Source: Phycisphaerales bacterium
GTDB taxonomy: Bacteria > Planctomycetota > Phycisphaerae > Phycisphaerales > SM1A02
Length of the DNA stretch: 64,000 nt
Assembly: GCA_029242715.1 (NCBI GenBank)
Contig: JAQWTL010000020.1
Location: 1 to 64,000 of the forward strand
Direction: 5' to 3'
Program-made: the position numbers and the translations under genes
Part shown: in pieces, positions 12,178 to 22,498 of the stretch
Layout of the letters: each line of letters starts with the position of its first letter
Position numbering within the stretch: position 1 is the first letter of the stretch
The notes under the pieces: model-generated
Told to the model about the DNA's origin: nothing
What the model saw: the letters and a program-made list of their open reading frames with translations, nothing else
Database searches by the model: none

Positions 12178-14079
12178 TCAGTCAAGATCGATGTCACGAT
12201 CACCATCATCACAATGGGACTCGATGACTTCCAGAAAGACCGGTGCGTAGGACTGCAGCTTCGCATCGCCGATTCCGTGCAGCATCCTCATCGTTCGAAG
12301 CCCGGACGGGCGATGCTTCGCCATGGCCTTGAGCGTACGGTCGGAGAACACGACATACGCGGGAACATCCTGTTCATTCGCGACCGACTTTCGCTTCTGC
12401 TTGAGCTTCTCAAGCAGATCAGCATCAACCCCTTCTTCCAGTTCCGCCTGCGACACGGATCGCCCCGTACGTCTGGGTTTCGGCGGACGCATCAATTCGA
12501 TCTCGATATCACCCCGCATCACCGCTGACGACTGTTCACTGAAGACGATGATCGGGCGATCATCACGTGTTCGCTCGAGGTAGCCATGATCGATCATCTG
12601 ATGAATCAGATGAACCACTTCCTTCTTGTGGAACCTCTTCAACAGACCCCAGGTCGACAATTCATGGTGTCGCCATCGGAGCACACTCTGCGCCTCACTG
12701 CCACAGAGCACCTCCGAAAGATGCCCCACACCGAAATTCTGTTTGACCCGGGCGACACAAGACAGAATCATGCGGGCCACATCCCGTCCATCTGGCAGCA
12801 ACTCGATCTCGTCAAGACAGACATCGCACGCCTTGCAGGAACCCCGGTCCCAGTCGCCACCGAAGTACCTCACGATGGACTGGTGCCGACATCTCATGCC
12901 GGAAGCCATCCGGTTCATGTCTTCAAGCAATTCATCCTTGGCTTGAAAATCCTCACGCAGGGCGTCGACATCTCCGCCTTCCGCCACAGCTTCTTCAAAG
13001 GAACGAGTCGCCAGCCGACGCCAACGGTCCACATCCGCATAGGAATGGAACAGGACGCAGTCGGCGGGTTCTCCATCTCGTCCCGCCCTGCCGGTCTCCT
13101 GCTGGTAATGCTCGATCGATCGCGGCATCGAGGCGTGAATGACCGCCCGGATGTTGCTGCGGTCGATACCCATTCCGAAAGCCACCGTCGCGACGACGAT
13201 ATTGACCTCCTCACGCGCAAACTGGGTCTGCACCCGGTCTCGCTCGCGTGAAGACAAGCCGGCGTGGTAGTACTTGGCCGTCATCCCCTCCTTGCACAGT
13301 CGCGATGCGATCTGCTCGGTGTCCTTGCGGCTCAACGCATAGACGATCACACCTTGCCCGTCATGCCGTCGGACTTCTTCGACCAGTTGATCACGCCCGC
13401 CTTCACGACGCCTGATCCGAAGGGTGAGATTGGGACGATCGAAATTCCCCACCAGGATGGATGGATCGGAAAGTACAAGCGCCTCGAGAATATCCTGCCG
13501 CACCTGAGGTGTGGCCGTTGCCGTACAGGCATGGAAGGATGCCTCGGGAAAGATGCCGCGAAGATCTGCAAGCCGTCGATATTCCGGACGGAAATCATGC
13601 CCCCAATGACTGATGCAATGCGCTTCGTCAATTGCAAAGGCGCGAACGCCAATCGTACGAAGTAACCCATTCAGCGAACCACCCACCAGCAACTCCGGAG
13701 ACACGTAGAGCAATTTTGTCTGGCGTGACTGGATCTGCTGACGATTGTGATGACGTGTCTGTTCATCCTGTCCGCTGTGCAATGAGACGGCAGGAACGCC
13801 GTTGGCGACGAGTCCGTCGACCTGATCCTTCATCAGCGAAATCAGAGGACTGGCCACCACAGTCAATCCCTCGAGCAGCAATGAGGGAAGTTGATAGGTC
13901 AGACTCTTACCTCCACCGGTAGGCATGACAAGCAGCGAATCACGAGCACGAAGATTGGCTTCGATTGCATCCTGCTGAAGTGGACGCAGGGCATCGAAAC
14001 CCCAGATCTCCTTCAGAACATGAGCAATCCGCGAAGACCAATCTTCCTCAGATTGCCGATCTTCCACTCCGGTGTTCAT
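12178..14079 (-). CDS. recQ: ATP-dependent DNA helicase RecQ
   Basis: A 633-residue RecQ helicase with all usual parts. Motif 0 and Walker A (LRPLQQDAI, MPTGGGKS) come first, then the DEAH box (AIDEAHCISHWGHDF), motif VI (QETGRAGRDG), the zinc-binding segment CRHQ..SCKACDVC, a winged-helix RQC domain, and a C-terminal HRDC domain (about 545-625). It unwinds DNA 3'-5' in recombination and fork repair. The ATG at 14079 lies five bases beyond the stop of the transglutaminase gene, so it is probably co-transcribed as the last gene of the minus-strand string. The HRDC end was checked and is complete. Confidence 0.95.
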   Translation of the reverse strand: MNTGVEDRQSEEDWSSRIAHVLKEIWGFDALRPLQQDAIEANLRARDSLLVMPTGGGKSLTYQLPSLLLEGLTVVASPLISLMKDQVDGLVANGVPAVSLHSGQDEQTRHHNRQQIQSRQTKLLYVSPELLVGGSLNGLLRTIGVRAFAIDEAHCISHWGHDFRPEYRRLADLRGIFPEASFHACTATATPQVRQDILEALVLSDPSILVGNFDRPNLTLRIRRREGGRDQLVEEVRRHDGQGVIVYALSRKDTEQIASRLCKEGMTAKYYHAGLSSRERDRVQTQFAREEVNIVVATVAFGMGIDRSNIRAVIHASMPRSIEHYQQETGRAGRDGEPADCVLFHSYADVDRWRRLATRSFEEAVAEGGDVDALREDFQAKDELLEDMNRMASGMRCRHQSIVRYFGGDWDRGSCKACDVCLDEIELLPDGRDVARMILSCVARVKQNFGVGHLSEVLCGSEAQSVLRWRHHELSTWGLLKRFHKKEVVHLIHQMIDHGYLERTRDDRPIIVFSEQSSAVMRGDIEIELMRPPKPRRTGRSVSQAELEEGVDADLLEKLKQKRKSVANEQDVPAYVVFSDRTLKAMAKHRPSGLRTMRMLHGIGDAKLQSYAPVFLEVIESHCDDGDRDIDLD

Positions 14080-14084
14080 TACTG

Positions 14085-15053
14085 CTATTGCTGCTGTTGT
14101 TGCTGTTGTTCGGAAGCTGCGTCGCTGCCTGGAAGATCCGTTCTCGAAACCCGATCCGGAGCCTCTGCATAGACGGGTAGATCCACGAGCATGTCATCGA
14201 CAACCTTCCGACGGTCAGGCCTGTGTCCTGGAGATGTCCGGACTTCAATTTCCAGGGATTCTGAAGCCGCCCCCTGGTAGATGCCACGGTTGGGTGGAAC
14301 ATCCCGATAGGAACGCCCATACCCGACGGTCACATAGGTTTCTTCTGGAACCAGTCCATGAGTCGGATCATAGGGTTGCCACCCATGTGTGGGTGACCAG
14401 TACTCGATCCAGGCATGACTCTGGGATGGCGTTTCCTTCTCTCGCTCAACATGCAGATAGCCACTGACATAACGAGCAGGAATGCCTGTCAAACGCAGCA
14501 GACCAAGCGCCACATGAGCAAAATCCTGACAGACGCCGCAACCACCAACCAGAAGTGCATCCGTTGTCGAATGGGCATCGGTGACATTGGAGCGATATTC
14601 GAATCGGTCAGGCAGGCCCTTGCCGACGATCTCCACGGCTTCTCCGATCGTGCCGACCTTGGAGAGGCCCATGTCGGCATGAAGCGCTCGAAGTGGCTCA
14701 TCATCCATGATGGGATCCGCAATCTGCAGAAAGTCCCAGAGATCCATCGAGTCCTGCAAGCCCTTGATCGGATCATCTACGAGTCCCGGAAGGACCACAT
14801 TCGGCGTCGTTTCAATCAGAGAACGAGCGAAGATCTCGATGCGTTCGTGGTAATCCGTAATGGAAAACCAATGAGCTGCATTCCCCAGCCAATCTTCATG
14901 TCGTGTCACACGAGTTGATGGCCCGACCAAGAGGGAGAAGTCCAGGAGAACCTGGCCCGACTGCGTCCTGGGTTCGACGCGGATGTCCATATGGGACTCG
15001 CGAATGAACCCGCTGTATCGGAAATGAAGTCGATGTTCGATCTGAAGCAGCAA
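14085..15053 (-). CDS. Transglutaminase-like protease-fold protein with polyglutamine tail
   Basis: A 322-residue protein of the bacterial transglutaminase-like family. The N-terminal strand-rich domain is followed by a catalytic core with C175 (GCGVCQDFAH), H213 (SHAWIEYW) and D229 (YDPTHG). It is usually encoded beside alpha-E and cyclic-permuted ATP-grasp proteins, as here, and is thought to act as a peptidase or amide-forming partner. The likely start is TTG at 15053, nine bases after the alpha-E stop. The C-terminus ends in seven consecutive glutamines (14088-14108), which is not typical of the family. Confidence 0.85.
   Translation of the reverse strand: MLLQIEHRLHFRYSGFIRESHMDIRVEPRTQSGQVLLDFSLLVGPSTRVTRHEDWLGNAAHWFSITDYHERIEIFARSLIETTPNVVLPGLVDDPIKGLQDSMDLWDFLQIADPIMDDEPLRALHADMGLSKVGTIGEAVEIVGKGLPDRFEYRSNVTDAHSTTDALLVGGCGVCQDFAHVALGLLRLTGIPARYVSGYLHVEREKETPSQSHAWIEYWSPTHGWQPYDPTHGLVPEETYVTVGYGRSYRDVPPNRGIYQGAASESLEIEVRTSPGHRPDRRKVVDDMLVDLPVYAEAPDRVSRTDLPGSDAASEQQQQQQQ
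14088..14108 (-). repeat. Polyglutamine codon tract (CAG/CAA x7)
   Basis: Seven glutamine codons of mixed CAA and CAG stand directly before the TAG stop of the transglutaminase-like gene. The run is in frame and makes a homopolymeric tail. Slipped-strand change in number would alter only the tail length. Confidence 0.85.
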
Positions 15054-15062
15054 GGTGTTTTC

Positions 15063-16028
15063 TCAGGTCGTGAAATACTGATGTGAAAGAACGTCATTAA
15101 CTTCGGTCACCGAGGCAACCAACTCAGAACATACCGCTTCGAGGTCATCGAGTGCCATGAGGTCATTTTCCTCATAGCGAAGACGCGCTGAGAGACGCCC
15201 GATGAGACGGGCTGCCTCCGACATCCCCGTTCCCGCTTCCAGAACACTGATAGCCTGCTCCATGCGCCCAAGACAGACACGAACGGAGTGCGGAGTGTGC
15301 TCATCAAACAGAAGGAAACGGGCGACACGGGATGGTTCGAGACTGGCGCCATAGACACGGCGATAGTTTTCCAGCGATGCGAGGGTTCGAAGGACTCCCC
15401 GGATCCGGGCATGGTGCACTGGAATATCGATATCGGCAGGATGCTCTAGAAGGATCGGCAGCCTGTGCTGGATGACAAGAAGCCCGCGGTACATGCGTTC
15501 AAACATCATGCCCATCGTGAGGAAGAGCCAGGCCTCATCCCGGATAAATGCCCGGTCAATGGCACCGCTGATGCCATAGACCTCTCGCATGACACGGCTC
15601 ACGACATAATCGGGAGCCGACTGGCGTGAACCAGCTGAGCGGACATCCACATCAAGTTGAAGCCAGCATTCATTGATCATTTCAAAGACTTCGCGCGTGA
15701 GATATTCACGCACTGCGCGAGCATTTTCTCTGGCCCTTCGAATGGAAGACGCCACGGACAGGTCATTACCCGGACCCACCAGGTATGTCCAGAGATAGGA
15801 GAGGCTGACCTCATCTACATCATCACCTTCTACGATCGGAGCAATGGAACCCGGATAGATGTTTCCCAACTGTCGCCAGAACTGGCACGCCAGTTCCGGA
15901 GAGAGTCCACGCAATTCCACCGTCAGTTGTTCCCCGACCTGGAGCATCCGACAGATCTCGGCAGAACGCTCGACGTACCGCCCCATCCAGTAGATGTTCT
16001 CTGCAGCACGGGAAAGCATGCCTCTCAT
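15063..16028 (-). CDS. Alpha-E domain protein (DUF403)
   Basis: A 321-residue all-helical protein. It begins MLSRAAENIYWMGRYVERSA after a three-residue lead, the hallmark of the alpha-E family. The conserved pair DEAWLFLTMGMMFERM and a C-terminal helix bundle follow. The family almost always sits next to the cyclic-permuted ATP-grasp and transglutaminase-like genes and is predicted to assist their peptide-ligation chemistry; its biochemical role is not settled. Its ATG overlaps the ATP-grasp stop by four bases (ATGA), so the two are translationally coupled. Confidence 0.9.
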   Translation of the reverse strand: MRGMLSRAAENIYWMGRYVERSAEICRMLQVGEQLTVELRGLSPELACQFWRQLGNIYPGSIAPIVEGDDVDEVSLSYLWTYLVGPGNDLSVASSIRRARENARAVREYLTREVFEMINECWLQLDVDVRSAGSRQSAPDYVVSRVMREVYGISGAIDRAFIRDEAWLFLTMGMMFERMYRGLLVIQHRLPILLEHPADIDIPVHHARIRGVLRTLASLENYRRVYGASLEPSRVARFLLFDEHTPHSVRVCLGRMEQAISVLEAGTGMSEAARLIGRLSARLRYEENDLMALDDLEAVCSELVASVTEVNDVLSHQYFTT

Positions 16029-17503
16029 GACTTGGACTCCCCGGGAAGCTCAGCGAGGATCCACGTGTCCTTGCTGCCTCCGCCCTGTGAGGAGTTCACG
16101 ACATAGGAACCTTCCTCGAGCGCAACTCGAGTCAATCCCCCAGGCAGAACCCGGATATGTTCGCCACACAACGCAAAGGGCCGGAGATCCACCCGCCGGG
16201 GTGCAAACTTTCCATCGACATACGTCGGATGGGAAGAGAACTCGACCAGTGGCTGGGCGATGTAGGCCTCGGGCGCGGCATCAAATGCTTCACGGAAGGT
16301 GCTGATCTCTTTCTTGGAAGCAGTGGGACCAACGAGCATTCCATAACCACCGGCGCCACCTGCCAGCTTCACAACCAGATCCGACAGGTTCTCACGGATA
16401 TAGACGGCCTCTTGAGGTCGCCGACCAACCCAGGTCTTGATCTGCGGAAGCAGAATGTCTTCGTCAAGGTAGTACTTCACCAGGTCGGGAACCCAGGGGT
16501 AGATCGCCTTGTCATCTGCAACGCCGGCACCGGGCGCATTGGCGATTGTCACATTGCCTGCCTGCCAGGCATGAATCAATCCCGGTACACCCAACATGCT
16601 GCTTGGATCGAATACGACCGGATCGATGTATTCATCATCAATTCTTCTGTAGATCACATCGACACGTTGCTTGCCCCGAGTCGTCCGCATGTAGACCTGA
16701 TCATCCTCGACAATGAGATCACGGCCTTCTACCAGTGGGACACCCATTTCGCGGGCCAGGAATGAATGTTCAAAGTAGGCCGCGTTGTAGACCCCGGGGG
16801 TCAAGACGGCAACTGTCGGATTCTCGCGCCCTCTTGGTGCCGTGAAGCGAAGCGTATCAAGCAGGAGGTTCGGATACTGCTCAACTGGACGAACGCCGTA
16901 CCGGCTGAAAAGCTCAGGGAAGACTCTTGAGAGCAGATTACGATTCTCAAGCACATAGGACACGCCGCTGGGACAGCGGCAGTTGTCCTCAAGAACAAGG
17001 AACCCGCCCTTGTCATCCCGAAGCAGATCCGTGCCGACGATGTGCGTGTAGATTCCATGACGCGGACGCGTACCGATCAACTCACGCCGAAAATCCCCTT
17101 GCTCAAATACGAGGTCATGTGGGATGACCCCATCACGAAGGCACTTCTGGTCGGAGTAGATGTCCGCGAGAAAGAGGTTGATGGTCTCCAGGCGTTGAAC
17201 GAGTCCGGCTTCCACCGCGTGCCATTCGGATCCGGAGATCACGCGGGGCACGAAATCGAATGGAAAGACCCGCTCGACCCCTTCCTCCTGCCCATAGACA
17301 GTGAACGTAATGCCCTGGTTGACCAGAGATACTTGCTGCAACTGCTCCCGACGGTCAATCTCATCACCGTCGAATTGACCAAGTGCCGAGATGATGTTGT
17401 CGTAGAAATCCCTCGGCGCATTGTCAGCTGTCAACGCCTCGTCATAGCCATTCTTTGCAGCATGCCATTCCATGGAGGCTTCAAGTGTAACCGTCGCACG
17501 CAA
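16025..17503 (-). CDS. Circularly permuted ATP-grasp protein (DUF404/DUF407)
   Basis: A 492-residue protein of the circularly permuted type 2 ATP-grasp group. Recognisable segments are RVFPFDFVPRVI, DLVFEQGDFRREL, LEDNCRCPSGVSYVLENR, AVLTPGVYNAAYFEH, LVEGRDLIVED and VVKLAGGAGGYGMLVGP. Known work predicts these enzymes to form peptide or amide bonds with ATP, together with alpha-E and transglutaminase-like partners; the substrate is not known. The frame opens at TTG 17503; the ATG at 17473 (MEWHAAKNGYD) is an equally good start. The gene lies 21 bases after the metal permease stop. Confidence 0.9.
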   Translation of the reverse strand: MRATVTLEASMEWHAAKNGYDEALTADNAPRDFYDNIISALGQFDGDEIDRREQLQQVSLVNQGITFTVYGQEEGVERVFPFDFVPRVISGSEWHAVEAGLVQRLETINLFLADIYSDQKCLRDGVIPHDLVFEQGDFRRELIGTRPRHGIYTHIVGTDLLRDDKGGFLVLEDNCRCPSGVSYVLENRNLLSRVFPELFSRYGVRPVEQYPNLLLDTLRFTAPRGRENPTVAVLTPGVYNAAYFEHSFLAREMGVPLVEGRDLIVEDDQVYMRTTRGKQRVDVIYRRIDDEYIDPVVFDPSSMLGVPGLIHAWQAGNVTIANAPGAGVADDKAIYPWVPDLVKYYLDEDILLPQIKTWVGRRPQEAVYIRENLSDLVVKLAGGAGGYGMLVGPTASKKEISTFREAFDAAPEAYIAQPLVEFSSHPTYVDGKFAPRRVDLRPFALCGEHIRVLPGGLTRVALEEGSYVVNSSQGGGSKDTWILAELPGESKS

Positions 17504-17524: not shown

Positions 17525-18886
17525 TCAATCACCAGGAGGGCTGGCAGCAGCTCCGTCTTCGCCCTCGGAATCCCCGGCTGGGATCGGACGGCCATGAGGA
17601 TCCTGTGAAACGGAACCCGTCTGGATCTCCAGTTCCGCACGCATCCTCTCATCCGTGACATGCTCCAATCGCATGGCCTGTCCGTGAACATGATCTGCCG
17701 CAAGATCCGCCTGTCGCCACAGCCATGTTTCCCACAACCGATGGGATCGGACAACCTCCACAGCCCTGGCTCGACCAGCATCACTCAGCTTCCACACACT
17801 TCCCTCTCGATAGACAAGCCTGCGACGTTTCAAGCTGACGATTGCCAAGCGGGAAGCAAGTGGTCCGGCATCAGCAAGGCTCGTCAGTGTTTGACGAATG
17901 TTGTGAACCGACATCGACTCGCCTCGTTCCTCGAAACGGAACAGAAACCCCAGAACATCTTCAGAGACAATGCGAACCCGAAGCCGAATTCTGTGAATGG
18001 CAAGGACAAGCAGGCCATGCCGAGGGGCCAGCACCCAGGCCAGTGCGAAGAGTACTCCGGCTGCCACCGCCATCATCCCGGATGTTGATGTGTCCTCCAC
18101 ATCACTTGAAAACCAACTGGGAACGGTAATCGCTGAAATATGCCCAAGCCCTGCCCCAATGACTCCAACGATCACCGCCAATACGAGCACTATGGACAAC
18201 CGATCACTGATGAGCCGTGCCGTTGCTGCAGGAATGACCAGCAAGGAAACCACCAGGATGCTGCCGACAACCTCGAAACACGCGACACATGTTGCCGCTG
18301 TCATGACCATCAAAACCTGATTCATCAGGCCTGAATGAATTCCAGTCGACCTGGCCATGTCTGGATCAAAGGAACTGATCACCATCTCCTTGTAGAACAA
18401 GAGGATGATGACGAGGTTGATCAGGCAGACGACAAGGAGCACCGGAAAAGCCCTGGGAACCTCCATCCCAAGGAACATGACCGTATCGAGCGGCGCCAAT
18501 TCGATTGCTCCATACAGCACGCAATTTGGATCGAGATCAACGTGATCAGCAGCCTGGACGATCATGACCAGGCCCAATGCAAACAGCGAGGTGAAAACGA
18601 CCCCCATTGCGGCGCCTCGCTCAAGCCGCCCCATGCGATGCAGAAACTGGGTGAGAACCGCAGTCACGATGCCTGCAATGGCGGCCCCCAGAAACATCCA
18701 GACGTTATCGCGTGTGCCACTCACGAAGAATCCCAGAGCAATCCCCGGGAGCACCGCATGGGAAATCGCATCACCCATCATCCCCATGCCTCTGAGCACA
18801 AGAAAGGTGCCGGGCAATACACAAGCGATGGCGGCCAGAGCCCCCAATACGATGATCCAGTCATCCAACCCGTTCATCCAGCTCAT
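17525..18886 (-). CDS. troD: Mn/Zn ABC transporter permease fused to DtxR/MntR-like domain (second permease)
   Basis: A 453-residue fusion. Residues 1-295 are an ABC-3 family permease with eight to nine hydrophobic helices, beginning with GALAAIACVLPGTFLVLRG. A winged-helix segment follows (RQTLTSLADAGP to SDAGRAR), and then the DtxR-type dimerisation and metal-binding region. That region has SHRLWETWL, ADHVHGQ and MRLEH, matching the His/Glu and EH ligand positions of DtxR and MntR. The C-terminus is a polar tail. Ordinary TroC/TroD permeases end near 300 residues. Its ATG overlaps the first permease stop by four bases. It is predicted to carry Mn or Zn across the inner membrane with the neighbouring subunits. 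Confidence 0.88.
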   Translation of the reverse strand: MSWMNGLDDWIIVLGALAAIACVLPGTFLVLRGMGMMGDAISHAVLPGIALGFFVSGTRDNVWMFLGAAIAGIVTAVLTQFLHRMGRLERGAAMGVVFTSLFALGLVMIVQAADHVDLDPNCVLYGAIELAPLDTVMFLGMEVPRAFPVLLVVCLINLVIILLFYKEMVISSFDPDMARSTGIHSGLMNQVLMVMTAATCVACFEVVGSILVVSLLVIPAATARLISDRLSIVLVLAVIVGVIGAGLGHISAITVPSWFSSDVEDTSTSGMMAVAAGVLFALAWVLAPRHGLLVLAIHRIRLRVRIVSEDVLGFLFRFEERGESMSVHNIRQTLTSLADAGPLASRLAIVSLKRRRLVYREGSVWKLSDAGRARAVEVVRSHRLWETWLWRQADLAADHVHGQAMRLEHVTDERMRAELEIQTGSVSQDPHGRPIPAGDSEGEDGAAASPPGD

Positions 18887-20187
18887 GGTGAAGCCTCACC
18901 AAGAACATGTGGGCTTGAAGGCAGGCTGCCCTCAGGCCCCAATGCCGCCTCGAGTTCCTGCACGAGTTCAACACCAAGAACATGCTCAATCTCGTCGGCA
19001 TCACGATCAACATGTGTAGGGGCGATATCTGCATGACGAATAAGGAACAATTCCCAGAGTCTGTGATTACGAACAACCACTTGAGCAGCCTCTTGGCCGG
19101 TTTCTGTCAGGACAACCTCTTCACCATGGGCACTTTCAATCTCCCCACGACTTCGAGCCTTGCGAAGCAGCCGATCAACCTCACGTTGCGTCCATCGTCG
19201 TCGCTTCAGAAGATCACCGCGGCAAACCTTGCCACTCGTCTCCTCACATTCCCAGATTGCACGGAGGATGTGCTGACGATTCGTTCGGTGTCGAATACCC
19301 CTGGCCCGGATGAGCCGAACCAATAAGCCTCGGCGACTGCCCAGAACAAGGCTGAGCATGAAAATGGCAGAAGCAGAGAGCACGATCACTGCTCCGGCTG
19401 GCATTCGAGGCACCAAGGCACTGATGGTGACCCCGAACCAGGCACTTGCCGCACCAAGCAATGAGGAGATGACCATCATGATCACCAGTCGATCTGTCCA
19501 GTAGCGTGCCGCTGCAGCCGGAATGATCAGGAAGGCCAGTACAAGGATGAGGCCAACTGCCTGCAGGCCAATCACCGTCACCGCAGTACCAAGCAGGAGC
19601 AAGGCAAGATCCAGGGTAGTGACAGGCCAGCCCTGGCTGCCTGCAAAATGATCATCGAAGCAAAGCAGGCGGAACTCCTTGTAGAGCGCCGCTGAGATCA
19701 GGATGACGATGATGGCAGCAATACCGATTCCGATGGCATCTGCCTGGACCATTGAGGCTGTCTTGCCATAAATGATCGATTCCAAGCCTGCCTGGTTGCC
19801 GTTGGGCAGATCCTGAATCACACCCAACAAAGCGATCCCGAGACCAAAGGCCGCACTCATCACAATGGCCATGGCCGCGTCATCGCGAAGCATCGTCGTT
19901 CGCTTGATCAGGAGAACCAACGCCGCAGCCAACACCCCGGCTATGGCTGCTCCGAGGAGAAGTCCAATCGACCAGCGGCCCGTACCACCCATCATCACCA
20001 TCAGGAGAAAGGCCACCCCAACCCCCGGAAGCGTGGCATGACTGATGACATCACCGACCAGAGCACGCTTGCGCAAGAGCAACAGAGAGCCAACAGAACC
20101 AGCGGCAATCCCCAGCAGAACCGTGCCAATCACGACCAATCTTGTGTTGTAATCCTGAAGAAGCAGGACCCGCCAGAAGGTGTCCAT
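18883..20187 (-). CDS. troC: Mn/Zn ABC transporter permease fused to DtxR/MntR-like domain (first permease)
   Basis: A 434-residue protein. Residues 1-290 are an ABC-3 permease (VVIGTVLLGIAAGSVGSLLLLRKRALVGDVISH). It is followed by a winged helix (QHILRAIWECEETSG, RRRWTQREVDRLL) and a DtxR-type metal domain (NHRLWELFLIRHADIAPTHV, ADEIEHVL). The spacing D-E-I-E-H matches the MntR ligand pattern E-G-I-E-H. This is the same architecture as the next gene, so the two are paralogous fusions. It follows the ATPase stop by three bases. What the sensing domain does on a permease is unknown; DNA binding, metal storage or feedback on transport are possible. Confidence 0.88.
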   Translation of the reverse strand: MDTFWRVLLLQDYNTRLVVIGTVLLGIAAGSVGSLLLLRKRALVGDVISHATLPGVGVAFLLMVMMGGTGRWSIGLLLGAAIAGVLAAALVLLIKRTTMLRDDAAMAIVMSAAFGLGIALLGVIQDLPNGNQAGLESIIYGKTASMVQADAIGIGIAAIIVILISAALYKEFRLLCFDDHFAGSQGWPVTTLDLALLLLGTAVTVIGLQAVGLILVLAFLIIPAAAARYWTDRLVIMMVISSLLGAASAWFGVTISALVPRMPAGAVIVLSASAIFMLSLVLGSRRGLLVRLIRARGIRHRTNRQHILRAIWECEETSGKVCRGDLLKRRRWTQREVDRLLRKARSRGEIESAHGEEVVLTETGQEAAQVVVRNHRLWELFLIRHADIAPTHVDRDADEIEHVLGVELVQELEAALGPEGSLPSSPHVLGEASP

Positions 20188-20190
20188 GCC

Positions 20191-21018
20191 CTACCCCTCT
20201 TCCTCACCTCGGTGGGCCCGTCCAAGGGCCATGGCTGCCTGGTCCAGCAGCGTCAAGCGACCACCATAGGTGCGGCGCAGGTTCTCAATCGTGAATGTGT
20301 CCTCGATCGAACCCGCAGCGACGACACGCATGTTCAGCATCACCACCCAGTCAAAGGACTCTTGGACAGTCTGCAAATCATGGTGAACACAGATCACCGT
20401 TCGCCCCTGGCTCCTGAGTTCACGAAGCGCCGAAAGAATCGCCTGCTCGGTCGATGCATCCACCGATGCAAAGGGTTCATCCATGAGATAGAGATCTGCA
20501 TCCTGTACCAGAGCACGGGCCAGAAAAACGCGTTGCTGTTGACCACCTGAAAGTTGGCTGATCTGTCGACCAGCGAGATCTGCCAGATCGACTCGCTCCA
20601 GGGCTTCCATGGCTGCAGACCTTTGGCGACGGCCAACGGGTCGGCACCAGCCCAATCTCCTGTAGGTTCCCATGGCAACCACATCCAGAGCGTTCACCGG
20701 AAAATCCCAATCAACCGATTCACGCTGTGGAACGTAGGCAACACGACCTCTTTGCCGACTGATCGATTCACCCCAGAACTGCACCTCTCCGGAGATACGA
20801 GGCACGAGATCCAGACAGGCTTTCAGCAAGGTGCTCTTGCCGGCACCATTGGGACCAATGATGCACGCCAGTTGTCCCTCGGGAACATCCAGATCAACAT
20901 CCCAGAGGACCGGCTTGCGGTGATAGGCCACTGTCATGTCATGGATCGACAAAGGTGCAGTTGCATCATGCTCGCTGCCTGGAACCACTGGAACACTGGA
21001 TGCATTGGTTGCCATCAT
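20191..21018 (-). CDS. troB: Mn/Zn ABC transporter ATP-binding protein
   Basis: A 275-residue ABC ATPase with Walker [11 protein letters not shown]-loop region [13 protein letters not shown], signature LSGGQQQR, Walker B LYLMDEPF and the H-loop HHD. The DWDFP after the Q-loop is characteristic of metal-type (family 9 partner) ATPases such as TroB, ZnuC and MntB. It powers uptake through the two permeases downstream. It begins six bases after the solute-binding protein stop and ends three bases before the first permease, so it is in the middle of an operon. Confidence 0.93.
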
Positions 21019-21024
21019 GACAGC

Positions 21025-22032
21025 TCACGGATGAACAGGGTTGCCAATGGAACCCGGCTGCATCTCGTTCTCCTGCTTGTCCTCATTCCAGCGACCACCC
21101 AAAGCGTCTGTCACAGTACGAGCGTTGTGCTCGATCATGCCGACGTAGGTCCCTTCCCGTGTTCCGGGCTTACCCATAGCATCTGAGAAGAGTTCGCCAC
21201 CGATCACGACCTGGTGTCCACGTGCCTGCGCACCCTCGATGAGGGCCTGTATGTTTTTCCGTGGCACACTCGACTCGATGAAGACGGCTGGGATTCGACG
21301 TTCGACCAGAAACTCGACCAGTTCGTTGAGATCGGACAAACCCGCTTCAGACTCCGTCGAGATGCCCTGAATGCCACGCACTTCGATTCCATATGCACGA
21401 CCGAAATATCGAAAGGCATCATGAGCGGTTACCAGTACCCGCTGGTTCTCCGGAATGGACTTGATCATGGTGGCCACGGAGACATGCAATTCCAACATCG
21501 ACTCCATGGATCTCCGTGCGTTGGCTCGGTAAATCGTGCATCCATCTGGATCGATGTTGCAGAGAACAGTGGCAACCTGATCAAGTGTTGATGCCCATGT
21601 CTGCACATCCATCCAGACATGTGGATCAGGGTGGCCAGTTACCGACTCGTCCTCCAGAAGCAGTTCAGGAGAAAGCTCCGCCGTAACGGCATGAACCTCC
21701 CGACCACGGTCCCGGGCCTTGGAGAAGACATTACCCATGCGGCCCTCGAGCATGAGACCGTTGTAGAACACCGCATCCGCAGTGAGGATTCTGCGCACAT
21801 CCGAAGCCTTGGGTTTGTAGAGATGGGGATCAACCCCCTCCCCCATGATGCTCACGACCCTGGCACGATTCCCGGCCACGGCACGCACGAGATCCGCCAC
21901 CATCCCGGTGGTCGCCACGACGGATAGTTGAGGACCAACAGCCTCAGCAGGTGGATCCCCGCTGGGGCTGCCAAACATCCCGGCCAGGGACAGGTGGACT
22001 GCGATCAATTTGTAACATAGGCTACAAATCAT
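21025..22032 (-). CDS. troA: TroA-like Mn/Zn solute-binding lipoprotein-less periplasmic protein
   Basis: A cluster-9 metal-binding protein of about 335 residues. The ligand set is visible: H70 (GVDPHLYK), H138 (DPHVWMD), H204 (VTAHDAFRYF) and D284 (ELFSDAMG). The three His and one Asp, and the text around them, match Treponema TroA closely, which binds both Zn and Mn. A signal-like hydrophobic start (KLIAVHLSLAG) precedes the mature part. The ATG at 22032 lies inside the dyad operator 22011-22047, so the true start may be this ATG or the TTG at 22008, perhaps leaderless. It is the first gene of the transporter operon, divergent from mntR. Confidence 0.88.
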   Translation of the reverse strand: MICSLCYKLIAVHLSLAGMFGSPSGDPPAEAVGPQLSVVATTGMVADLVRAVAGNRARVVSIMGEGVDPHLYKPKASDVRRILTADAVFYNGLMLEGRMGNVFSKARDRGREVHAVTAELSPELLLEDESVTGHPDPHVWMDVQTWASTLDQVATVLCNIDPDGCTIYRANARRSMESMLELHVSVATMIKSIPENQRVLVTAHDAFRYFGRAYGIEVRGIQGISTESEAGLSDLNELVEFLVERRIPAVFIESSVPRKNIQALIEGAQARGHQVVIGGELFSDAMGKPGTREGTYVGMIEHNARTVTDALGGRWNEDKQENEMQPGSIGNPVHP

Positions 22033-22047
22033 GTAGCGTATGTTACA
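22011..22047. promoter_or_regulatory. Dyad operator between troA and mntR (MntR-type site)
   Basis: TGTAACATAGGCTACA (22011-22026) and TGTAGCGTATGTTACA (22032-22047) are inverted copies that match at 15 of 16 positions across a 5-base centre. Each copy is also an imperfect palindrome itself. The block lies between the divergent regulator and transporter genes, and TATGTT in both directions could be a -10 element. Binding by the adjacent MntR-type protein when metal is bound is inferred, not shown. Confidence 0.75.
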
Positions 22048-22084
22048 CTTCTCCCAGATCACCGTCAACCATGGATCCCGTGAA

Positions 22085-22498
22085 ATGAGCCGCCTCGCCA
22101 ATCAATTCGCCAAGACCCGTACTGATCACGCCTCAGAAACTGCTGAGGATTACGTGGAAGCGATTGATGACATCCTTGCCCAGCAGGATTCCTGCCGCGT
22201 CAAGGACCTCGCGGAACGGATGGAGGTCAGCCATGTCACAGTCACCAGGATCCTGCAACGACTGACCAATGAGGGTCTCGTTGCCAAGGAACCCTATGGG
22301 CCAGTCAGCCTCACCACTGCTGGCAGACGAATGGCAAAGGCCTCCAGGCAACGCCACGAGTTGCTCCTGGAATTCCTGCTGTCACTGGGTGTTCCCGAAG
22401 CTGATGCCATTCGTGATACTGAAGGAATGGAACACCACGTCTCGGAATCAACCCTCAGGTGCATGCGACGCTACCTGGACAAGATTGCCAGCAGCTGA
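22085..22498 (+). CDS. mntR: MntR-type metal-dependent transcriptional regulator (DtxR family)
   Basis: A 137-residue DtxR/MntR protein. An N-terminal winged helix (RVKDLAERMEVSHVTVTRILQRL) precedes the dimerisation helices. The MntR ligand positions are seen: D22 and E25 (ETAEDYVEAI), H91 (RHELLLEF), and E113, E116 and H117 (DTEGMEHH). The EGMEHH is the same as in manganese-type MntR, not the Cys of iron-type DtxR. No SH3-like C-terminal domain is present. I chose ATG 22085; the upstream codons overlap the operator. It probably represses the divergent transporter operon when manganese is sufficient. Confidence 0.9.
   Translation: MSRLANQFAKTRTDHASETAEDYVEAIDDILAQQDSCRVKDLAERMEVSHVTVTRILQRLTNEGLVAKEPYGPVSLTTAGRRMAKASRQRHELLLEFLLSLGVPEADAIRDTEGMEHHVSESTLRCMRRYLDKIASS

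Follow-up and report, generated by a model that had tools for sequence, protein, structure and literature searches.

The question raised by this locus is what a DtxR-like domain does when it forms the C-terminus of a membrane permease. The window, meaning the whole stretch of 64,000 nucleotides analysed (contig JAQWTL010000020.1 of a Phycisphaerales bacterium, assembly GCA_029242715.1), holds on its minus strand a metal-import operon of four genes, which encode a solute-binding protein, an ATPase and two permeases, P2 and P1, the genes of the last two overlapping at positions 18883-18886. The initial annotation, made from the sequence alone, had described permeases of 434 and 453 residues, each with a DtxR/MntR-like C-terminus, and had proposed a membrane metal sensor which either gates transport directly or binds DNA from the membrane. 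The sensor part of this proposal is supported by fold, profile and ligands, and of its two branches direct gating fits better, because the stretch that joins the sensor to the last membrane helix is near-constant in length and predicted to be a single helix, the recognition helix appears decayed, and a free MntR with its own putative operator is encoded alongside; the other branch, a sensor that binds DNA while in the membrane, is disfavoured. It is considered moderately probable that the domains act as a metal-responsive gate on the importer and not as a membrane-bound DNA binder.

DtxR-like domains on both permeases

Both proteins match the Pfam ABC-3 profile (PF00950) of ATP-binding cassette (ABC) permeases, P2 with 188.3 bits and an expectation (E) value of 2.4e-55 and P1 with 149.4 bits and 1.8e-43, against a cut-off of 20.1 bits. 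In each, an extra C-terminal part starts at about residue 290, and the profile search for a dimerisation domain, which had been suggested for both C-termini, gave matches to Fe_dep_repr_C (PF02742) of 64.4 bits (E 9.5e-18) in P1 and 55.0 bits (E 8.3e-15) in P2, above the curated cut-off of 27 bits. Genome scans covered an assembly of 46 contigs (3.2 megabases, 96.7% complete), where only three proteins carry Fe_dep_repr_C at E up to 0.01, namely P1, P2 and the free MntR, and where a profile search at E up to 0.001 returned no further ABC-3 permease. The same domain was present in all the fused proteins scanned, 17/17 of the P2 type and 16/16 of the P1 type, and no FeoA domain was among their Pfam matches.

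The AlphaFold2 models, with a mean predicted local distance difference test score (pLDDT) of 82.0 for P1 and 81.0 for P2, both contain a winged-helix fold. Residues 303-441 of the P1 model superpose on DtxR 2qq9 with Z 17.3 and a root-mean-square deviation (rmsd) of 2.4 over 135 aligned residues, and residues 299-429 of the P2 model on DtxR 1g3y with Z 13.6 and rmsd 2.4 over 123, the membrane domains matching the PsaBC permease chain 7kyp_F (Z 30.9 for P1, 33.7 for P2). With Foldseek, P1 gave a clear DtxR-like match (8pvt, E 1.4e-5).

The segments HRLWE and then EIEH or RLEH, which the initial annotation had picked out as a metal-ligand pattern, lie where it had placed them, and in alignments they coincide with the ligand segments of DtxR/SloR-type repressors of known structure. 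Their conservation was followed in C-terminal domains taken from 19 loci of draft genomes, from 60 stretches of 58 genomes and from the window, duplicates being removed; alignments A1 and A2 hold rows from related loci only, the P2 rows of L007 and L021, which contain X, being omitted. Positions were numbered by Bacillus subtilis MntR and counted in 48 P1-type and 59 P2-type domains, near-copies more than 90% alike having been thinned. Before the counts, L115 (a cut contig) was moved from the P2 type to the P1 type, L092 and L115 were moved from the DtxR-type to the MntR-type regulators, and four Feo-linked rows were removed from the free DtxR-type set.

E102 and H103 are present in every domain (48/48 and 59/59 in the P1 and P2 types), H77 in 47/48 and 59/59, and glutamate at position 81 (DtxR E83) in 47/48 and 56/59. 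Position 93 is histidine in 45/48 P1-type and 56/59 P2-type domains and, among the free regulators, in 2/34 of the MntR type and 0/21 of the DtxR type. Position 95 (DtxR H98) is histidine in 47/48 P1-type domains, the 59 P2-type domains having aspartate in 50 and histidine in 9, and position 8 is aspartate in 47/48 of the P1 type and, in the P2 type, histidine in 43, asparagine in 12 and aspartate in 4. As judged from these alignments, the metal-ligand positions are conserved, each subunit with its own pattern. With H77, E102 and H103 near-invariant, a generic winged helix with unconserved ligands, the outcome which the initial annotation had set against the sensing idea, was rejected.

The fusion itself was traced in 62 complete operons, gathered by similarity to P1 or P2 and therefore a non-random sample: both permeases are fused in 45, one in 12 and none in 5, and the apparently unfused permeases may partly be gene fragments in drafts (L024, L124, L125). 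An annotation error was rejected, the same joined reading frame recurring in 45/62 operons, and because both permeases are fused in so many homologous operons, the fusion is not a matter of chance. A dimerisation fold on both partners could mean that the DtxR-like domains serve only to keep the permease subunits attached to each other; such a role gives no reason for near-invariant metal ligands, and operons with a single fused permease or none also speak against it, so that this explanation is judged very unlikely.

The DNA-reading half and the free MntR

The DtxR DNA-binding profile, PF01325, was recognised in none of the fused proteins scanned (0/17 P2-type and 0/16 P1-type, E up to 0.01), compared with 15/15 free regulators in the control. 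The mean conservation of the recognition helix is 0.30 in the P1 type and 0.26 in the P2 type, against 0.65 in free MntR-type and 0.64 in free DtxR-type regulators. Among six genomes of the same genus, the identity of the helix-turn-helix (HTH) is 33% for P1, 45% for P2 and 85% for the free MntR, and that of the metal segment 82%, 91% and 92%, respectively. Moreover, in species pairs, which share lineages and are thus not independent, the fused HTH was less alike than that of MntR-type neighbours in 406/406 cases for P1 and 396/406 for P2, the metal segment barely changing in the same pairs (-0.05 for P1, +0.09 for P2); against DtxR-type neighbours, the fused domains had the lower HTH likeness in 20/21 pairs (P1) and 125/136 (P2). 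On these sequence comparisons, the DNA-reading half of the fused domains is decayed.

In the would-be DNA-reading region, P2-type proteins have an R-x-W(-S/T) motif (R-R-W-T at residues 330-333 of the window's P2; W in 46/59), and a similar GW(S/N) is found in P1 of four other loci (L138-L140 and L143). The R-x-W motif may mark a contact surface on the transporter.

A DNA binder tethered to the membrane, repressing the operon from there, could make use of the winged helix seen in both models, which is Arg-rich (mean net charge of residues 25-50 +4.2 and +4.5 in the fused domains vs +1.4 and +1.6 in free regulators). Nevertheless, the decayed recognition helix, the absence of PF01325 matches from all 33 proteins scanned and a free MntR beside a two-box site make this alternative highly improbable, and on the same grounds DNA binding is disfavoured as the main role of the domains.

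The free MntR-type gene, which the initial annotation had also noted in the region, exceeds the cut-off of its NCBIfam family (Table 1). Between it and the binding-protein gene sit the two boxes of a palindromic operator-like site, largely conserved in six aligned sequences of the same genus. The box pattern TGTANCATNNGCTACA was derived from the site itself, and its only zero-mismatch matches in the 3.2-megabase genome are these two boxes; with up to two mismatches the pattern counts in the genome (22 and 10) stay below those of the reversed control (44 and 46), and with up to three the window holds 4 matches vs 2.5 expected, which is no excess. MntR would be the protein that binds this site. 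Because the listed mntR start falls inside box 2, the ATG at 22085 is the likelier one, and for the binding protein, whose listed start is upstream of the operator-like site, the TTG at 22008 or one of the codons after it is likelier; the open reading frame starts of both genes are probably too far upstream, since the two-box site lies there. A free regulator occurs in 49/62 operons, within the stretch read. MntR and the two boxes would thus suffice to explain transcriptional control, with no part for the fused domains.

The junction helix, a possible gate and its history

In both models a continuous helix, as assigned by DSSP in P1, runs on from the last membrane helix as far as alpha-1, the first helix of the DtxR-like domain. 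In P1 this helix carries D310 (at MntR D8), which is invariant in alignment A2, and in P2 it carries H306, aligned with DtxR M10 and MntR D8. The linker, counted from where the permease profile match stops up to position 8 (its start is thus set by the profile), has 16 residues in 44/47 P1-type proteins and 17 in 3/47, and in the P2 type 15 residues in 53/61, 16 in 7 and 18 in 1, these sets of 47 and 61 predating the transfer of L115 between types. By contrast, the stretch from position 8 to position 77 varies from 54 to 80 residues in the P1 type and from 63 to 97 in the P2 type. The near-constant junction, helical in the models, fits mechanical coupling and does not favour a flexible tether open to cleavage.

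The gate model builds on the dual fusion and its conservation, the ligand positions, the lost DNA-reading signature, the linker, the MntR and the two-box site. P2 and P1 would be the permease subunits of a heterodimeric ABC importer of the Mn(II) type, possibly for Zn(II) or Fe(II), with a DtxR-type domain on each cytoplasmic end that would have been converted from a DNA-binding regulator into a transporter gate. Plentiful cytoplasmic metal would bind the conserved His/Glu/Asp sites, and the two domains, neighbours on the cytoplasmic face of the membrane, would alter their pairing or docking; the junction helix, from the last membrane helix to alpha-1, would relay the change to the permease or the ATPases, and import would slow, as feedback inhibition. 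Transcription would be left to the separate MntR with its two-box operator. As for the metal, manganese is likely to be imported and zinc is also possible, since the ATPase has MntA as best NCBIfam match, the free regulator passes the MntR cut-off, and the best match of the binding protein is the zinc family AztC, all NCBIfam matches of the latter being below their cut-offs.

Without any gating, the domains could receive the imported ion as it emerges on the cytoplasmic side and pass it on or store it, and the conserved His/Asp-rich segment (HVDRDADEIEH in P2), together with the histidine at position 93 that free regulators mostly lack, agrees with such a relay or buffer. The whole DtxR dimerisation fold and a near-constant helix to the membrane suit a switch better, and unfused permeases recur in the tree, so that this role is regarded as unlikely; together with the cleaved repressor discussed in the last section, it is one of the two main alternatives to the gate.

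Several observations weigh against the proposed gate. The metal sites of the fused domains are non-standard, since they have lost the MntR ligand E11 (with G/A instead in 46/48 P1-type domains; in the P2 type R/K in 51/59 and E in only 8/59), position 99 is variable in the P1 type (E 24, M 15, others) and the P2 type has aspartate for DtxR H98 in 50/59. The P2 model is unsure at the metal loop, with pLDDT below 50 at residues 399-402, and its best DtxR-family match in Foldseek, SloR, is weak (E 2.1e-3). In six loci from other classes of the window's phylum (L138-L143), P1 keeps a winged helix of about 80-90 residues but has lost the metal domain, P2 keeping both, and pairing of two complete metal domains is therefore not universal. 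Against DtxR-type neighbours, the fused metal segment is also less alike (-0.20 for P1, -0.15 for P2), so that this comparison cannot separate sensing from DNA reading, and the Arg-rich winged helix could still contact DNA. To these the chlamydial precedent, considered in the last section, has to be added.

The arrangement is widespread. In the window's phylum, at least 95/294 genomes have a fused match (reaching query position 400 or beyond), at least 37/294 have two, not always in one operon, and 13 have unfused matches only, among the matches listed. Of the 194 genomes in the phylum to which a record titled Verrucomicrobia belongs, 26 match at E 1e-70, 25 of them at full length, and the fusion is also found in draft records with the unchecked titles Myxococcales (L018) and Alphaproteobacteria (L023). 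In the sensor-domain tree, a quick tree in which 91/169 inner branches are weak, 58 free regulators lie on one side with B. subtilis MntR and SloR fragments (support 98) and with no fused domain among them; the P1-type domains form one group (support 88), the P2-type domains a group of 57 (support 95) with three outside it (L122, L127, L128), and the four Feo-linked domains also lie away from the free regulators. Since the fused domains stand apart from the free ones, the idea that the neighbouring regulator was captured recently was rejected. In the permease-domain tree, fused forms occur in both subunit clades with unfused ones scattered among them (13 state changes), a pattern best read as scattered losses, and transport therefore seems not to need the domain.

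Proteins that combine a DtxR-like HRLWE domain with FeoA stand directly beside FeoB in the four loci examined (4/4), and that of L132 opens like the last membrane helix of an ABC permease and matches P1 from residue 268. A related sensor may serve the ferrous-iron transporter too, as a second transporter partner. Downstream of the operon, at 12178-17503, lie a RecQ-like helicase and a cluster resembling transglutaminase-like, alpha-E and ATP-grasp-like proteins, named by eye.

Table 1. Positions of the operon, its domains, the regulator and the Feo-linked relatives (window coordinates, except where another locus is named)
Feature	Position	Strand	Remarks
P1, metal ABC-3 permease with C-terminal DtxR-like domain	17525..18886	-	453 aa; second permease gene; AlphaFold2 model
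P1 metal-binding/dimerisation domain, PF02742	17579..17782	-	residues 369-436; H382, E386, H399, H401, M405, E408, H409
P1 continuous helix, membrane end to alpha-1 of DtxR-like domain	17927..18013	-	residues 292-320; DSSP of model
P2, metal ABC-3 permease with C-terminal DtxR-like domain	18883..20187	-	434 aa; first permease gene; AlphaFold2 model
P2 metal-binding/dimerisation domain, PF02742	18937..19107	-	residues 361-417; H375, E379, H392, D394, D396, D398, E401, H402
P2 continuous helix to alpha-1 of DtxR-like domain	19234..19326	-	residues 288-318; model
ATPase subunit	20191..21018	-	275 aa; best NCBIfam match manganese MntA, below cut-off
Solute-binding protein, ZnuA family PF01297	21025..22101	-	Pfam
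Two-box palindromic operator-like site	22011..22047	.	TGTAACATAGGCTACA 22011-22026, TGTAGCGTATGTTACA 22032-22047, 21 base pairs apart
Free MntR-type repressor, divergent	22040..22498	+	162.1 bits vs cut-off 153, NCBIfam MntR PRK11050
DtxR-like + FeoA protein, L132	4607-5692		
DtxR-like + FeoA protein, L133	2744-3766		
DtxR-like + FeoA protein, L134	5240-6304		
DtxR-like + FeoA protein, L137	4664-5809		

Relation to known systems and significance

With the repressors MntR, DtxR, IdeR and SloR, the fused domains share the winged helix, the dimerisation fold and most metal-ligand positions; unlike them, they are part of a permease chain, are not recognised by PF01325, have an unconserved recognition helix and have lost MntR E11. 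The ABC-3 importers of the PsaBC type, to which MntABCD and TroABCD also belong, have a similar permease core and gene set (binding protein, ATPase, permeases), but the two solved PsaBC permease chains have 258 and 290 residues, P1 and P2 being about 150 residues longer at the C-terminus.

The closest described relative is chlamydial. The ytgABCD operon encodes the binding protein YtgA, the ATPase YtgB and the permeases YtgC and YtgD (PMC5599777, PMC7755916), and in YtgCR (CT069) an ABC-3 permease and a DtxR-like domain form one chain, the product of the first permease gene, which here is P2. The C-terminal domain of YtgC is released by cleavage and binds to the ytg promoter (PMC5599777), and YtgCR expressed in E. 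coli also gives a cleavage product (PMC7755916), so that a dedicated protease of the host species is not required in that case. In the same way, the C-terminal domain of P1 or P2 could be cut off the permease and act as a soluble metal-dependent repressor. This precedent is set against PF01325 in 0/33 fused proteins scanned, a recognition helix that drifts even within a genus, a free MntR whose helix is conserved and which has a two-box site beside it, and a junction that hardly varies in length and is predicted to be a single helix without any flexible part; the cleaved repressor is held to be rather unlikely here. Compared by its description, YtgCR differs in two respects: one permease is described as fused, both being fused here and likewise in 45/62 operons, and its domain is a cleaved iron-dependent repressor, whereas here the DNA-reading helix is unconserved and there is a separate MntR beside a two-box site.

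For the metal-responsive gate itself, the analogy is with MetNI and ModABC, in which the importer is halted when its substrate is bound by a dimerising domain in the cytoplasm (PMC10710835). There the regulatory domain is on the ATPase and has another fold, here a DtxR-type domain is on the permeases, and the likeness is one of working principle. In fact, the ATPase of the window (275 residues) matches PF00005, and its Pfam scan gave ATPase-type domains only, with no C-terminal regulatory domain of the MetNI/ModABC type. PgMntR of Porphyromonas gingivalis is a DtxR protein with twin FeoA domains, like the Feo-linked relatives found here, and the opening of the abstract does not describe it as joined to an ABC permease (PMC4805248).

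The permease-DtxR fusion is thus already known in Chlamydia (PMC5599777, PMC7755916), and among the results listed, which do not cover subscription papers, no title or abstract opening reports one outside Chlamydia. What is new is that both subunits are fused, that the metal site is conserved although the DNA-reading helix has decayed, that a free MntR and a two-box site exist alongside, and that the arrangement extends widely across Planctomycetota and Verrucomicrobiota. Taken together, and only tentatively, at somewhat less than an even chance, a DtxR-fold sensor could have moved from DNA to a transporter, one half on each permease, closing on metal to stop import; the arrangement would be old, broadly distributed in Planctomycetota and present in Verrucomicrobiota too, and the chlamydial repressor YtgR would have been set free again later from what had once been a transporter gate.

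The DtxR family is known for repressors that bind DNA, and among ABC importers feedback inhibition is known from the methionine and molybdate systems. If the gate is true, these bacteria would have a built-in, protein-level brake on Mn/Fe/Zn uptake, with sensor halves in both pore subunits. Furthermore, if the fused domains gate import, they would offer a possible origin, open to test, for the chlamydial iron repressor YtgR.

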